A stretch of DNA of 33,879 nucleotides from Bacteroidota bacterium (GTDB taxonomy: Bacteria > Bacteroidota > Bacteroidia > JABDFU01). The position numbers and the translations under genes were made by a program. Positions 1,955 to 28,406 of this stretch are shown here, piece by piece. The DNA is taken from the NCBI GenBank assembly GCA_016183775.1, contig JACPDY010000128.1, positions 1-33,879 of the forward strand. The letters run 5' to 3'. Position 1 is the first letter of the stretch. Every line of letters starts with the position of its first letter. Under the pieces are notes generated by a model. That model was given only the letters and a program-made list of their open reading frames with translations, made no database searches and had not been told where the DNA came from.

Positions 1955-2042
1955 GAACGCAGATTGTTATGATCCTTATGATAAAAATATGATTTATTTG
2001 TGCCATCATAACAAATCATAACCATCATAAAAATCAGCGTTC
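1955..2042. mobile_element. MITE-like element, copy 1, with the ends of the GxxExxY cassette
   Basis: An 88-base sequence bounded by 28-base imperfect inverted repeats, GAACGCAGATT... (1955-1982) and ...AATCAGCGTTC (2015-2042). The left end is the A-type end (GAACGCAG) and the right end, read in reverse, the T-type end (GAACGCTG). Each matches the corresponding end of the GxxExxY cassette at 10634-11088 at about 26 of 28 positions, but in opposite orientation. The 32 bases between carry no gene. No clear target-site duplication is visible. Confidence 0.65.
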
Positions 2043-2169: not shown

Positions 2170-2257
2170 GAACGCAGATTGTTATGATCCTTATGATAAA
2201 AATATGATTTAATTATGCCATCATAACAAATCATAATTATCATAAAAATCAGCGTTC
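2170..2257. mobile_element. MITE-like element, copy 2, with the ends of the GxxExxY cassette
   Basis: Second 88-base element inside repeat copy 2, with inverted ends at 2170-2197 and 2230-2257. Its T-type end (2257 back to 2230) differs from the left end of the GxxExxY cassette at one of 28 positions. It lies 41 bases before the -7 box of the glycosyltransferase, and as RNA from an upstream start would fold into a long hairpin. Confidence 0.65.
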
Positions 2258-8738: not shown

Positions 8739-9038
8739 ATGAAATCAACACCAAATATAAGACCTGAAACTTTTTGGGATACTGATTTTTCAAAAATAAA
8801 TTTTGATAAACAATATCAATCTGTTATCACCCGGGTATTTAATTACGGTACTATGAAAGATGTAATTGAAGTTTTAAAATACTACAAAGCCGATTTTGTT
8901 AAAGATATATTAGTAAATACAGAAAACAATTTACACTATAACGCCATAGATCTTGCGAAAGCTATTTTTCAGCTTAAAGATTCTGATTTCAAATGCTCCA
9001 GAAGTCCGCTGTTTCAGCAGAGTTATACCAAACATTAG
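8739..9038 (+). CDS. DUF6922-like protein, likely antitoxin partner
   Basis: A 99-residue protein with FWDTDFSKINFDKQYQSVI near the N-terminus and VFNYGTMKDVIEVLKYYKAD following, the pattern of DUF6922-type proteins (Phe-Trp-Asp, an invariant helix with RV..YG, then a second helix with YY). Members commonly precede AbiEii-type nucleotidyltransferase toxins in Bacteroidota, as here, and are presumed to be the antitoxin. The toxin gene starts inside its last 46 bases, so translation is coupled. No DNA-binding motif is obvious, although the palindrome at 8677-8706 would be a natural operator. The family assignment is from memory of the motif; the antitoxin role is inferred from context. Confidence 0.72.
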   Translation: MKSTPNIRPETFWDTDFSKINFDKQYQSVITRVFNYGTMKDVIEVLKYYKADFVKDILVNTENNLHYNAIDLAKAIFQLKDSDFKCSRSPLFQQSYTKH

Positions 9039-9652
9039 TCAAACTAATGGAGTTGGATTTATTACATGACCATCGCTTAGTTGGCGGAACAGCACTTGCC
9101 CTCCAAATAGGACATAGATTGTCTGTAGATATTGATTTGTTTTCCGATCAAAAACACAATTACGAGCAGATAACGAACACTCTCGCTAAAAAATTTAATG
9201 GCAACTTAAATATTATCAGATCAAATACCGATGGTATTACATTATTTATAAATACAATTAAAACAGATATTTACGATTGGGATGTACCATTTAATCACAT
9301 ACCATTTATTGAGAATAATATCCGGATGGCTTATAAAAAAGACATAATACCAATGAAGTTAAATACATTTTGCTCTTCCCATGATGCAAGATATGAGAAA
9401 AAAGACTATACTGATATTGCCGCATTGTTAAGGGAATACTCACTTAGCACTATGATTGACTTATATTTTCATAAGTATACTCAATCTTATTTGAATGAGC
9501 GGATAATAATCGAAAGGTTAGGCCACTATACAAAAGCTGAAAGCAATGGCAGCACAATGCCAATTATGCTTGATGGCAGCACATGGGATGACGTAAAGAA
9601 GCAAATTGACAAATCGATTAATAGTTATATTAATGAAAATATGAACGAATGA
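8993..9652 (+). CDS. AbiEii/AbiGii-type nucleotidyltransferase toxin
   Basis: A 219-residue protein. Residues 30-50, VGGTALALQIGHRLSVDIDLF, carry the AbiEii nucleotidyltransferase motif: GGT at 31-33 and the paired metal-binding acids Asp46 and Asp48. Later KLNTF and the KKDYTDIAALL block match the other conserved motifs of the family. Known AbiEii toxins block growth by transferring nucleotides, in some cases onto tRNA ends, and give abortive phage resistance. The start overlaps the DUF6922 gene by 46 bases. The stop overlaps the ATG of the epimerase gene by four bases (ATGA at 9649-9652), so the toxin reads directly into the sugar operon. The acceptor substrate cannot be deduced. Confidence 0.87.
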   Translation: MLQKSAVSAELYQTLVKLMELDLLHDHRLVGGTALALQIGHRLSVDIDLFSDQKHNYEQITNTLAKKFNGNLNIIRSNTDGITLFINTIKTDIYDWDVPFNHIPFIENNIRMAYKKDIIPMKLNTFCSSHDARYEKKDYTDIAALLREYSLSTMIDLYFHKYTQSYLNERIIIERLGHYTKAESNGSTMPIMLDGSTWDDVKKQIDKSINSYINENMNE

Positions 9653-10629
9653 AAAATATATTTATCACCGGAGGTGCAGGCTATGTAGGCTCAGTGCTTG
9701 TTCCTAAACTCCTTAAAAAGGGATATAATGTAACCGTACTTGACCTGATGATATACGGCGAAGATGTACTTCCCAAACACCCAAATTTAAAAACAGTAAA
9801 AGGCGATATCCGCGACCAGGAACTATTAAAAAAAATACTTCCCGGGCAGGATGCAGTGATACATCTGGCCTGTATTTCAAATGATCCCAGCTTTGAACTA
9901 AATCCAACACTTGGCAAGTCCATTAACCTGGATGCATTTGAACCATTGGTTAAAATTTCAAAGGAATCGGGTGTGCAACGATTTATTTACGCCTCTTCAT
10001 CCAGTGTTTATGGCATTAAGGAGGAGCCCAATGTAAATGAAACAATGACGCTTGAACCACTCACTGATTACTCAAAATTTAAGGCTCAATGTGAGGAAAT
10101 ACTAAGCAACTATCAAAGTGACAATTTCACTACTACTACTATTCGTCCGGCTACCGTTTGCGGGTACGGCTCACGGTTGCGTCTTGACCTGTCAGTAAAT
10201 ATTCTAACCAATCTTGCGATCAATAAAGGTGAGATAACTGTATTCGGCGGCTCTCAAAAGCGACCCAATATACACATTGAGGACATGACTGATCTTTACT
10301 GCATGCTATTGGAATTGCCAAAAGAAAAAATCGCGAATAAGATCTGGAACGCAGGCTATGAAAACCATACCATTTCTGAGATCGCCGGCATGGTAAAAAA
10401 TGTTATCGGCGACCAGGTTAAAATTGTAACTTCTCCTTCCAATGATCTGCGATCATATCACATTTCATCCGCGAAAATTAAAAATGACATAGGCTTTGTA
10501 GCTAAACATACAATTGAAGATGCTGTAAAGGATCTAAAAACCGCGTTCAATAAGGGTTTGGTTCCAAATTCATTAACGGATGATAAGTATTTTAATGTTA
10601 AGTTGATGCAGAAAATTGAGTTACATTAA
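9649..10629 (+). CDS. NAD-dependent nucleotide-sugar epimerase/dehydratase (extended SDR)
   Basis: A 326-residue extended short-chain dehydrogenase. Gly8, Gly11 and Gly14 in TGGAGYVGS form the NAD-binding GxxGxxG motif, Asp32-like acid follows the second strand, ASSSSVYG supplies the catalytic Ser region, and Tyr141/Lys145 (YSKFK) are the catalytic YxxxK pair. RPATVCGYGSRLRLD and FGGSQKRPNIHIEDM match sugar-nucleotide binding segments. It would epimerise, reduce or dehydrate an NDP-sugar in the cytoplasm. Translation is coupled to the toxin gene upstream. The stop at 10629 lies four bases before the left inverted repeat of the GxxExxY cassette, which therefore did not damage it. The exact substrate is not evident. 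Confidence 0.87.
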   Translation: MKNIFITGGAGYVGSVLVPKLLKKGYNVTVLDLMIYGEDVLPKHPNLKTVKGDIRDQELLKKILPGQDAVIHLACISNDPSFELNPTLGKSINLDAFEPLVKISKESGVQRFIYASSSSVYGIKEEPNVNETMTLEPLTDYSKFKAQCEEILSNYQSDNFTTTTIRPATVCGYGSRLRLDLSVNILTNLAINKGEITVFGGSQKRPNIHIEDMTDLYCMLLELPKEKIANKIWNAGYENHTISEIAGMVKNVIGDQVKIVTSPSNDLRSYHISSAKIKNDIGFVAKHTIEDAVKDLKTAFNKGLVPNSLTDDKYFNVKLMQKIELH

Positions 10630-10633
10630 AATA

Positions 10634-11088
10634 GAACGCTGATTTTTATGATCATTATGATAAATTAAGATGAGTAACTACAAGTATTCAGAGATCACTA
10701 ATACAATTATTAAATGTTACTATAATGTTTACAATACATTAGGGTACGGGTTTCTGGAAAAAGTCTATGAAAACGCTCTCCTGATCGAACTAATGAATAA
10801 TGGTTTGCGATGTTCAGCTCAATATCCTGTTGAAGTTTATTATAGCGCTAAAAAAGTGGGACAATATTTTGCCGATATAATCGTAAATGAATGCGTTATC
10901 ATTGAAATAAAAGCCGCCGAAGCTTTATGTGAAGAGCATGAAGCACAATTAACCAATTACCTCAAAGCAACTAATATTGAGGTCGGTCTGCTTCTTAACT
11001 TTGGCAAAAAGACAGAATTCAAAAGAAAAGTCTTTACCAACGAATATAAAATCATAACTGATCATAACGATCATAAAAATCTGCGTTC
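10634..11088. mobile_element. GxxExxY cassette bounded by 28-base inverted repeats
   Basis: The left end GAACGCTGATTTTTATGAT... (10634-10661) and the right end (11061-11088, reverse complement GAACGCAGATTTTTATGAT...) agree at 26 of 28 positions. They enclose almost exactly one gene, the GxxExxY protein at 10670-11101, whose ATG comes eight bases after the left repeat and whose C-terminus is encoded by the right repeat. The ends differ at the seventh base (T left, A right), and the same two end types occur in the 88-base elements at 1955 and 2170. The insertion leaves the epimerase stop and the aminotransferase start intact. No obvious target duplication is seen, and no transposase is encoded. 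Confidence 0.7.
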
Positions 11089-11101
11089 CCTTCGATCATG
11101 A
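10670..11101 (+). CDS. GxxExxY protein (PDDEXK_3 nuclease-fold family)
   Basis: A 143-residue protein. GFLEKVY at 27-33 is the name-giving GxxExxY motif. ADIIVNECVIIEIKA supplies Asp69, Glu79 and Lys81, the arrangement D-x9-ExK of PD-(D/E)XK nucleases, and Pfam places this family there as PDDEXK_3. Gln92 after the active site (EAQLTNYLKA) is also typical. Biochemical function of the family is not established to my knowledge. The last 15 residues (ITDHNDHKNLRSLRS) are mostly the translated right inverted repeat of the cassette. The stop overlaps the aminotransferase ATG as ATGA (11098-11101), so the gene is translationally coupled into the sugar operon although its fold has nothing to do with sugar synthesis. 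Confidence 0.9.
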   Translation: MSNYKYSEITNTIIKCYYNVYNTLGYGFLEKVYENALLIELMNNGLRCSAQYPVEVYYSAKKVGQYFADIIVNECVIIEIKAAEALCEEHEAQLTNYLKATNIEVGLLLNFGKKTEFKRKVFTNEYKIITDHNDHKNLRSLRS

Positions 11102-13284: not shown

Positions 13285-13371
13285 AAACCCCGACAGGGGT
13301 TTAATACGAATAACCACCGATGCAAGCGGTGGTAAATAAACAAAAACGATCCCCAACCCCGACAGGAGTTG
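13285..13371. repeat. REP-like hairpins, left of the transposase pseudogene
   Basis: Three hairpins: AAACCCC-GACA-GGGGTTT (13285-13302, perfect), ACCACCG-(7)-CGGTGGT (13313-13333, perfect) and CAACCCC-GACA-GGAGTTG (13354-13371, one mismatch). The AACCCCGACAGGGGTT form is a well-known intergenic repeat in Bacteroidota and the natural partner of the REP-associated transposase that follows. Confidence 0.8.
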
Positions 13372-13399
13372 AACTTTTTAGATAAATTAACAGTTGCAG

Positions 13400-13843
13400 A
13401 TGAGTAGTTATAGACAAATATTCTACCAGATAGTCTTCAGAACAAAATCGAACAAACACGCTTTGACTGAAGAACATTGCGATGAACTATACAAATATAT
13501 TAGTGGCATTATAAAAAATAAAAATTGCACTATTTACAGGATCAATGGCGTTAGCGACCATATTCATATTGTTTGCGATTTACATCCTTCAGTAGCGTTA
13601 GCAGACCTTATAAAAGATATTAAAATAGCCAGCAATATCTGGATGAAGAATTCAGGAAAGTTTCCTGATTTTAATGGTTGGTCTGATGGCTATGGTGCGT
13701 TCACTTATTCTATAAAAGAAAAAGACAGGTTGATAGAGTATGTAAAAAACCAATAAGAGCACCACAAAACATTTACCTTTATGGATGAATTTAGAAAGCT
13801 GTTAATTGAACAAGGAATTGAATTTGATGAAAAGTATTTATAA
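13400..13843 (+). pseudogene. REP-associated tyrosine transposase (Y1/HUH), broken by an in-frame TAA
   Basis: From the ATG at 13400 (MSSYRQIFYQIVFRTK, the family's normal N-terminus; an earlier TTG at 13394 is not needed) the frame reads 118 residues. HUH motif His54-Ile-His56 in GVSDHIHIV binds the metal, and Tyr98 in GWSDGYGAF is the probable nucleophile. At 13754-13756 a TAA stands where relatives have Glu in KNQEEHH. Beyond it the same frame continues without shift as EHHKTFTFMDEFRKLLIEQG and on to a TAA at 13841-13843, which is the normal family ending (FDEKYL). A single G-to-T change (GAA to TAA) therefore truncated a 148-codon gene. The N-terminal piece retains HUH and Tyr but lacks the last helix, so it is probably inactive. 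Confidence 0.88.
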
Positions 13844-27682: not shown

Positions 27683-27979
27683 ATGTCAGTACACATAAAA
27701 ACCTTCGACGAACTAACGAATTTACTTCGAAAAGAAAATATTTTCGAAAAATTCGGACTTAGTAAAATCGGAGTTTTTGGGTCCTTTATTCGTGGCGAAA
27801 AATACAATGATATTGATCTGTTAATTGAAGACAATATTGAATATGAGCAGCGAATCTCGTTGAAACAAACCCTTGAAAAACTTTTAAATACAAAAATTGA
27901 TATTGTAATAAAAAAATATGCCGAACCAATTATTTTGTTCCGTGCATTAAGGGAAATAAAGTATGCAACCCGCAATTAA
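27683..27979 (+). CDS. mntA: MNT-family nucleotidyltransferase antitoxin (MntA-like)
   Basis: A 98-residue minimal nucleotidyltransferase. GVFGSFIRGEKYNDIDLLIE supplies Gly33-Ser34 and the metal-binding Asp43 and Asp45; IDIVIKK later provides the third acid. MntA-type antitoxins silence the HEPN toxin by adding AMP units to it. The loop between GS and DxD is eight residues, shorter than the roughly ten usual in the family, but all key residues are present. The hepT-like gene starts within the last 17 bases. A TAATTTCG box (27659-27666), one mismatch from TAnnTTTG, lies 16 bases before the ATG; a -33 box is not clear. Confidence 0.85.
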   Translation: MSVHIKTFDELTNLLRKENIFEKFGLSKIGVFGSFIRGEKYNDIDLLIEDNIEYEQRISLKQTLEKLLNTKIDIVIKKYAEPIILFRALREIKYATRN

Positions 27980-28406
27980 AAACGATATTGTTTTCTTATT
28001 AATTATTCTTGAATCAATCGGAAAGATAGAAATCTACAAGCGAGATTTCAATTCCGGTGAAGTTTTTTTCACATCAAATGACCAATTGAATTTCAATGCT
28101 TCTCTTCTCTTATTAGCAAATATCGGAGAACAATGCTCAAAAATAAGTGATGAATTGAAAGACAAATATCCGAAAGTTGAATGGCAGAAAATAAAGAATA
28201 TCAGAAATCGTATTGTTCATGATTATACCGGCATTGACTCTGATCTCACCTTCAACATAATCAATACTGAATTAGTCCCACTCCGCAATTCTATCCATCA
28301 GATCATTGCAAACGAATTAAAAACAGGGAACTTTAACTCCGATGAATTAAAATTTGCAGGTAAAAGTGCATTTTATAGCCATGTTAATTTTAAGGCATTC
28401 ATGTGA
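27963..28406 (+). CDS. hepT: HEPN-family RNase toxin (HepT-like, DUF86)
   Basis: A 147-residue all-helical protein. IRNRIVHDY contains Arg81, His86 and Tyr88, the RX4HXY motif of HEPN RNases of the HepT type; the Tyr is the residue AMPylated by MntA in the Shewanella system. NIGEQCSKISDELK upstream is the usual first conserved helix. It forms a toxin-antitoxin pair with the overlapping mntA-like gene. The stop (TGA, 28404-28406) overlaps the GTG start of the helicase-nuclease gene (28403), so the pair reads into that gene. Confidence 0.87.
   Translation: MQPAIKNDIVFLLIILESIGKIEIYKRDFNSGEVFFTSNDQLNFNASLLLLANIGEQCSKISDELKDKYPKVEWQKIKNIRNRIVHDYTGIDSDLTFNIINTELVPLRNSIHQIIANELKTGNFNSDELKFAGKSAFYSHVNFKAFM

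Follow-up and report, generated by a model that had tools for sequence, protein, structure and literature searches.

A candidate one-gene mobile element in Bacteroidota with inverted four-site arrays at its ends and a putative RecB/Cas4-like nuclease of the GxxExxY family

In the stretch of DNA analysed here (33,879 nt of a single Bacteroidota contig, hereafter the window), a small gene of the GxxExxY or PDDEXK_3 family lies between inverted repeats, and the question it raises is whether gene and repeats together constitute a mobile element and, if so, what would move it. A first-pass annotation, made from sequence alone, had taken the unit for a dispersed or mobile cassette whose nuclease might, as a speculation, drive its own movement, and had regarded the role of the family as unknown; no role was found in print in the open-access literature searched. 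The cassette claim is supported by the results below, and the speculation remains an inference. Our preferred explanation is that positions 10634-11088 constitute a one-gene mobile element of ~455 bp, nuclease-driven, with iteron ends and with non-autonomous derivatives. We consider this as likely as not, movement itself being inferred, since none was observed in the data examined.

The first-pass annotation described a gene between its own inverted repeats of 28 bases, matching at 26 of 28 positions, with the right repeat coding the C-terminus of the protein and the whole fitting between an epimerase stop and an aminotransferase start without harm to either. Each of these claims held, coordinates and sequence included, but the full arms extend to 38 nt (87% complementary, 33/38 paired in the inverted-repeat search, against 26 paired in the 28 nt as first read), and each is composed of four spaced units. 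The features are as follows.

10670..11101, + strand: GxxExxY / PDDEXK_3 gene, 143 aa, supported by profile matches and an AlphaFold2 model
10634..10671, + strand: left arm, GAAC followed by four units, a 38-nt inverted repeat
10638-10643 (GCTGAT), 10647-10652 (TATGAT), 10656-10661 (TATGAT) and 10666-10671 (TAAGAT), + strand: the left-arm units, spaced 9-9-10
11051..11088, - strand: right arm, inverted, with four units within 11051-11084 (9-9-10) and GTTC up to 11088
10630..10633, + strand: AATA immediately beyond the left arm; AATA or AATG precedes GAAC at many class-A ends

The epimerase ORF terminates with its stop at 10629, leaving four bases before the left arm at 10634; the last unit of that arm overlaps the GxxExxY start codon, the right arm is contained in the 3' end of the GxxExxY ORF, and the GxxExxY stop shares the bases ATGA (11098-11101) with the aminotransferase start. 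Both flanking ORFs are open across their full domains. The AATA at 10630..10633 could be part of the element end or, equally, of the target. The flank inverted-repeat score of this copy is 51, compared with a maximum of 26 among 100 dinucleotide shuffles. Profile matches are strong for both PF13366 (3e-41, 140.9 bits vs a curated cut-off of 22) and the GxxExxY model TIGR04256 (4.6e-40, 136.6 bits vs a cut-off of 35), and PF13366 is the sole domain inside the element, without a known transposase domain and without an HUH Y1 transposase. The element sits between sugar genes and outside rRNA, and the window as a whole gave no Rfam match. DUF6922 and AbiEii genes at 8739-9652, possibly a toxin-antitoxin-like pair, immediately precede the epimerase gene, and at 27683-28406 two small overlapping ORFs have, by eye only, the look of a nucleotidyltransferase/HEPN pair.

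Flanking repeats of this kind are not peculiar to the window, and the chance that they were a local coincidence, named in the first-pass annotation as grounds for refutation, was not borne out. The family occurs at six places (seven matches) in the window's genome, and each of the six has flanking inverted repeats that outscore its own 100 shuffles, the weakest (L004) scoring 30 vs 26. Their sequences differ from place to place, which corrects the first-pass annotation in that the copies of one genome may bear quite different ends. Three copies in this genome are decayed or short (L004, L006, L007), and at L007 (G000:C13) a short gene remnant lies within a perfect 25-bp inverted repeat. The main sample comprised the best 80 loci by match to the query, taken from a larger number and covering many phyla; 76 were testable, and 386 mechanical ORFs from those same loci served as controls. 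A score of at least 26 was reached by 61/76 GxxExxY loci vs 20/386 control ORFs, a score of at least 30 by 55/76 vs 6/386, and a score of at least 40 by 41/76 vs 4/386. These ends are shown; an inverted repeat scoring 26 or more was nevertheless absent in 15/76 loci, and high scores also occur in a few control ORFs. Stops or frame breaks interrupt 11/80 matches. Two further samples, both restricted to the window's class and sharing one locus (L291), agree: 24/28 loci in relatives reached 26, vs 58/420 in a cross-paired null that is inflated because loci share end classes, and 25/29 loci did so in array-rich genomes. PF13366 matches were present in 20/30 relatives, with up to 19 in one genome.

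Many of these ends obey a common code, in which four 6-bp units of the form NNNGAT (often ACNGAT or GCNGAT) are spaced 9-9-10 and inverted between one end and the other; the copy in the window matches this code exactly. When the 61 loci scoring at least 26 were classed by their outermost motif, GAACRC (often AATAGAACGC) accounted for 28, GCCACNGAT and GACAGGAT for 6 each, GGACGC for 5, CCACGAAT for 3, CCGCAAAG for 2 and other motifs for 11. In the 36 GAT-class loci with scores of at least 30, RCNGAT units recur at 9 or 10 nt in 62/73 spacings, and among 122 arms 9-9-10 was the commonest four-unit spacing (18 cases, the next having 3); other end classes have, by eye, units spaced at 8-11 nt. 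At the bioF-bioD site discussed below, 17/32 arms (16 loci; 6 left, 11 right) carry four units at 9-9-10, the remainder showing 9-10-10, fewer units or an interruption. In the loci that supplied the 122 arms, 33 arrays of the 9-9-10 type lie within 400 nt of the gene, vs 12 in the other 566,472 bp. The code is shown by these counts. Comparison of the two arms of each locus gave agreement within units of 109/109 at C, 106/109 at G, 106/109 at A, 102/108 at T and 100/109 at R, compared with only 74/109 at N, where 22 of the 35 differences were transversions; outside the units agreement was 792/953 (161 positions differ). Because units were located in either arm, the counts at the fixed positions presuppose a match in one arm, which the count at N does not. 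Since C, G, A and T of the unit are mostly kept while N is free, the arms resemble sites bound by a protein more than the two sides of an RNA stem, and their recognition as DNA sequence by a protein is inferred.

In an alignment of 43 GxxExxY sequences, V20, L24, G25, G27, L29, E30, Y33, D69, E79, K81 and F111 were invariant and Q93 and Y97 nearly so (at least 90% of sequences). The signature of PD-(D/E)XK nucleases of the RecB/Cas4 type consists of D, ExK and QxxxY, and the family meets this criterion. The AlphaFold2 model of the window protein (pLDDT 88.8) gave as its best Foldseek match the Cas4 protein SSO0001 (4ic1, E 6e-5), followed by LHK-Exo (8e-4) and also lambda exonuclease, with modest TMq values of 0.44-0.51; in a VIA structure comparison 4ic1 was again best (Z 8.7), with other chains at 8.4 and 8.1. 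Weak similarity to Cas4 models is detectable at the sequence level (3.7e-5, L001), and a PDB sequence search gave a best E of only 0.53. The protein is likely to be a small RecB/Cas4-like nuclease, although nuclease activity is inferred from the conserved residues and the model. Selection on the gene is strongly purifying, with dN/dS of 0.02-0.14 by two methods in 10 pairs, the majority of which come from a shared site. Several other identities were considered and rejected. Cas4 itself has conserved cysteines of an iron-sulphur cluster, and no cysteine occurs in the invariant or nearly invariant columns of the 43 sequences. A phage gene is not indicated, the window protein matching none of 50,697 phage records at 1e-5 and no PHROG (plasmid records matched in 8 of 72,556 cases), nor is a defence gene, no PADLOC match being better than 0.0059. 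A GxxExxY gene adjoining a reverse transcriptase is mentioned in the literature (PMC8934634).

The ends follow the protein across phyla. On the protein tree, which is limited by few columns and many weak forks, arm class required 20 changes vs a shuffled mean of 30.7, with 0/200 shuffles as low. The nearest protein from another phylum carried the same arm class in 32/48 cases vs 10.8 expected, and in 11/22 vs 1.8 expected outside the largest arm class; arm classes shuffled within phyla reached the observed cross-phylum agreement in 100/5000 trials. This cross-phylum association of gene and ends is shown. Over 50 rows of the protein tree arm class needed 11 changes and host phylum 19, but this contrast was discarded as unfair because phylum has more states.

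Evidence bearing on movement comes first from the extent of DNA homology between elements of different phyla. For the pair L053/L090 (Bacteroidota and Thermodesulfobacteriota) and the pair L106/L128 (Verrucomicrobiota and Pseudomonadota), blast homology of the element stops within about 7 nt of the arm ends. In one MAG, two copies (L058/L061) share 82.8% identity along 465 nt that run from shortly before the gene up to the end of the right arm; the left arms resemble each other but lie at different distances, and further homology of at least 150 nt was not seen in the part of the comparison covered. This pair, which is shown, is the one clear case of copies in a genome having common ends and different neighbours. 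Inverted repeats bound the moved unit, and the criterion used for insertion sequences and DNA transposons is met in that respect. No target-site duplication length from 1 to 12 nt was enriched in 34 loci, a constant 2-nt TA being invisible to the test; some transposons produce no target-site duplication. Locus-specific inverted symmetry continues outside the ends at 21 class-A loci (mean run 4.86 vs 2.70, 0/2000 shuffles) and is still detectable beyond 4 nt (1.81 vs 0.88, 2/2000 shuffles). The loci had been chosen by inverted-repeat score, so this test is biased towards symmetry; the outward symmetry may possibly reflect palindromic targets, and a single empty-site junction (L188) reads TTTTAAAAAA.

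Elements are read in the direction of both neighbours in 29/36 cases vs 49/111 control triples (Fisher 0.0002). Among co-directional neighbours, the upstream gene stops no more than 25 nt from the left end in 25/32 cases, and the downstream gene begins no more than 25 nt from the right end in 20/32 (mechanical starts). Insertions lie mostly in short co-directional gaps and are read in the host direction, so that expression is probably by read-through. Orthologous pairs of elements occupy nuoD-nuoE (L091/L107) and bioF-bioD (L089/L093), gene names having been assigned by eye from translations. A few kb past the nuoD-nuoE element, on its downstream side, further arrays of this code precede another gene, at 7441 in L091 and at 8202-8264 in L107. 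In two genomes (L003 and L092) one and the same pair of flanking genes encloses GxxExxY elements for which no DNA homology to each other was seen, possibly a recurrent insertion spot.

Empty sites were found for an orthologous element at bioF-bioD, in a search confined to that junction. The search used the joined flanks of L089 against 395 genomes of the class and 249 of the genus (Flavobacterium), plus 60 further stretches, and resolved both genes at 86 of the 122 loci examined. The two genes are at most 32 nt apart in 23/86 (7 from the genus search; one, L211, retains an arm remnant), a GxxExxY element is held in 17/86 (those of L199 and L093 being identical), and the remaining loci contain another gene, arm relics or other sequence; at L198 the right arm is kept and the gene is gone. 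These orthologous empty sites are shown. Sixteen rows of this site form one clade (SH-aLRT 98), with L099 placed by its bioF side alone. Over the same genomes the Spearman correlation was 0.07 for element v bioF and 0.52 for bioF v bioD, the control set giving 0.50 and -0.04; nearest-genome agreement was 7/15 vs 6/17 in the control, and vertical inheritance and sideways spread are not separated by these data. Candidates of 402-440 nt in the bioF-bioD gap were rejected as elements, since they contain another gene instead (DUF2007-like, by eye only), with a best inverted repeat of at most 29 in the 15 loci shown. Other occupants of this gap were also seen. Eight Flavobacterium loci (L194, L196, L200, L201, L210, L215, L250, L260) have gaps of 50-70 nt with lone CGCAAAG-type arms, in four (L246, L221, L261, L247) a CGCAAAG-type arm lies beyond the GxxExxY element, as though the two were nested, and in L208 and L225 the gap is filled by a different REP-like hairpin (CCCTGTCAG..CTGACAGGG).

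Arrays also occur without the gene. The pattern DMNGATNNNDMNGATNNNDMNGATNNNNDMNGAT identified 255 arrays in 41/149 genomes of the class, compared with 2 for the reversed pattern. At least 29 convergent pairs were counted, with inner gaps of 2-5 nt in 15 (exactly 3 nt in 11), 13 nt in 7, 18-117 nt in 4 and 373-380 nt in 3; the last three (the window, L285 and L365) each enclose a GxxExxY gene. As the inner gaps are mostly short, gene-less hairpins outnumber gene-bearing elements among these pairs. The gaps of 3 and 13 nt are one helical turn apart. Two such hairpins lie in the window itself.

1955..2042, strand not assigned: gene-less hairpin, 88 bp, with the element's ends; full array at 2005-2038 (- strand), other arm with three of the four units
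2170..2257, strand not assigned: gene-less hairpin, 88 bp; full array at 2220-2253 (- strand), other arm with three of the four units

The region containing them, 1888-2316, is a tandem duplication with a spacing of ~215 nt and one hairpin per half. Gene-less forms of 72-88 bp are present in the window's genome (G000) and in G008, and several gene-less arrays lie, by eye, immediately ahead of start codons. Such dispersed forms are shown, and they meet the criteria for MITEs, namely small size, the ends of an element, no ORF and several copies; the assignment of their ends to an autonomous element is an inference. PF13366 was detected in 27/28 array-bearing genomes tested vs 10/18 array-less ones (Fisher 0.0012), a test that left out 13/41 array-bearing genomes and in which 17 added ones had been chosen for at least 4 arrays. 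In G027 arrays are present and a PF13366 match was not found. An array accompanies only 6/29 GxxExxY loci of the array-rich genomes (on both sides in 5), and in G122, with its 22 arrays, the two GxxExxY copies are both flanked by ends of other types.

In the preferred reading, inverted arrays of four NNNGAT sites (9-9-10, about one helical turn apart) would form both ends of the element, and the encoded RecB/Cas4-like PD-(D/E)XK nuclease would bind these arrays as DNA, draw the two ends together and cut at or near the ends, at the target, or both, with host repair finishing the insertion; the gene-less hairpins of 72-88 bp would be its non-autonomous, MITE-like derivatives. Binding and cutting of the ends by the nuclease are inferences drawn from the association of arms with protein, from the grammar of the units and from the conservation of the active site; the chemistry of insertion is likewise inferred. 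It is possible that the arms are bound by some other protein. Purifying selection at one fixed site is stronger than would be expected of a purely selfish gene.

A bolder reading would see here a new class of transposable element in which a RecB/Cas4-like nuclease of ~125 aa is the sole mobility protein and reads four-site arrays, inserting into operon gaps without target duplication, perhaps at short palindromes, and spawning swarms of ~80-bp hairpins in many phyla, with the four-helix-bundle IVP genes as a second, parallel class of like architecture. Taken jointly, these claims fall somewhat short of an even chance. With regard to the last, all nine PF05635 genes outside rRNA in the window's genome (L013-L021) have inverted repeats above 100 shuffles, L016 barely so, and in relatives (L303-L331) 21/29 such genes lie between inverted repeats vs 23/435 when cross-paired. 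Their end units are short and tandem and differ between copies.

The alternative that survives best, and which remains possible, is that an IS200-like tyrosine transposase (RAYT/TIRYT) or another enzyme moves the ends in trans, the nuclease being a passenger or helper. Y1 transposases are available, with 8 matches in the window's genome, of which one falls at 13394-13756 of the window; published work describes long TIRs at TIRYT genes, together with dispersed TIR families (PMC3733652); and the 22 arrays of G122 are unaccompanied by any GxxExxY copy with those ends. Against this, ends of the window's type are absent near the 8 Y1 loci (two weak matches with 4 mismatches), a result limited to the window's genome, and arm class tracks the GxxExxY protein across phyla, arrays being concentrated at the gene (33 vs 12 in 566 kb). 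Upstream of the Y1 transposase gene in the window, AACCCCGACAGG occurs as direct repeats at 13286 and 13355.

It is unlikely that the gene is instead a host-useful repair or defence gene with operator arrays, for autoregulation or a hairpin regulon, its mobility being incidental. In favour are the low dN/dS (0.02-0.14), the single bioF-bioD lineage (SH-aLRT 98), the weak similarity to Cas4 models, the gene-less arrays seen by eye just ahead of start codons, and the inner gaps of 3 vs 13 nt, one helical turn apart as expected of co-operative binding. Against it are patchy presence, decayed copies (L004, L006, L007; 11/80 with a stop or frame break), inverted ends that delimit the homologous stretch, and the occurrence of the same element type across many phyla.

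Least likely is a unit that acts at the RNA level in the manner of 23S rRNA intervening sequences, with arms that pair in mRNA for cleavage by RNase III. This reading is favoured by the shared plan of one small ORF between complementary ends, the co-directionality with both neighbours (29/36 vs 49/111), the repeat-built inverted repeats of PF05635 IVS-protein genes (21/29 vs 23/435) and an excess of G-U type over A-C type arm mismatches in 55 loci (68 vs 53), and opposed by the non-significance of that excess (p 0.20), the 175 mismatches that are transversions, and the differences at unit N (35/109, 22 of them transversions), sequence being conserved more than pairing. An RNA-stem reading is improbable and unsupported, though not excluded.

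Should the preferred reading hold, GxxExxY would become the sole gene of a mobile element with iteron ends, with a testable function and predicted DNA sites; the short repeats dispersed through Bacteroidota and other phyla would find an explanation, a lone RecB/Cas4-type nuclease might be capable of driving transposition, and GxxExxY elements would be linked to the puzzling IVS proteins by a common architecture. No description of such an element was found in the open-access literature searched (titles and the starts of abstracts), nor did six arm sequence strings find a match there. Several known systems nevertheless share features with it. Insertion sequences and MITEs have terminal inverted repeats and exist in gene-bearing and gene-less forms, but here there is no DDE, HUH, serine or tyrosine recombinase and no target duplication was found. 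The heptamer direct repeats TAACTGA of Beggiatoaceae and Bacteroidetes are likewise short repeats ahead of start codons (PMC4679880), but nearly all are direct and not inverted, and the word "endonuclease" is absent from the main text of that paper. The intervening sequences of 23S rRNA are of similar size (~430-450 nt), have complementary ends and one small ORF, are patchily distributed and are excised by RNase III (PMC4990558; rRNA insertions, with mention of IVP, are also treated in PMC11270868), whereas the present elements lie between protein genes, encode an unrelated protein and have ends that look DNA-recognised; IVP ends are, by eye, mostly contiguous units of ~7 nt, while GxxExxY units are spaced at 8-11 nt. 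Homing endonuclease genes are comparable in being nuclease-only, patchy at one conserved site and under strong selection, but lack the inverted repeat-built ends and the several different sites per genome seen here. REPtrons and TIRtrons consist of RAYT and TIRYT tyrosine transposase genes enclosed by palindromes or terminal inverted repeats; they too have one small gene between inverted repeats, gene-less repeat families and expression that is presumed to be by read-through (PMC3733652); their protein is an HUH Y1 transposase, whereas here it is a PD-(D/E)XK nuclease, and here the ends are arrays of spaced units (9-9-10 in the window's type), of types shared together with the protein in several phyla.
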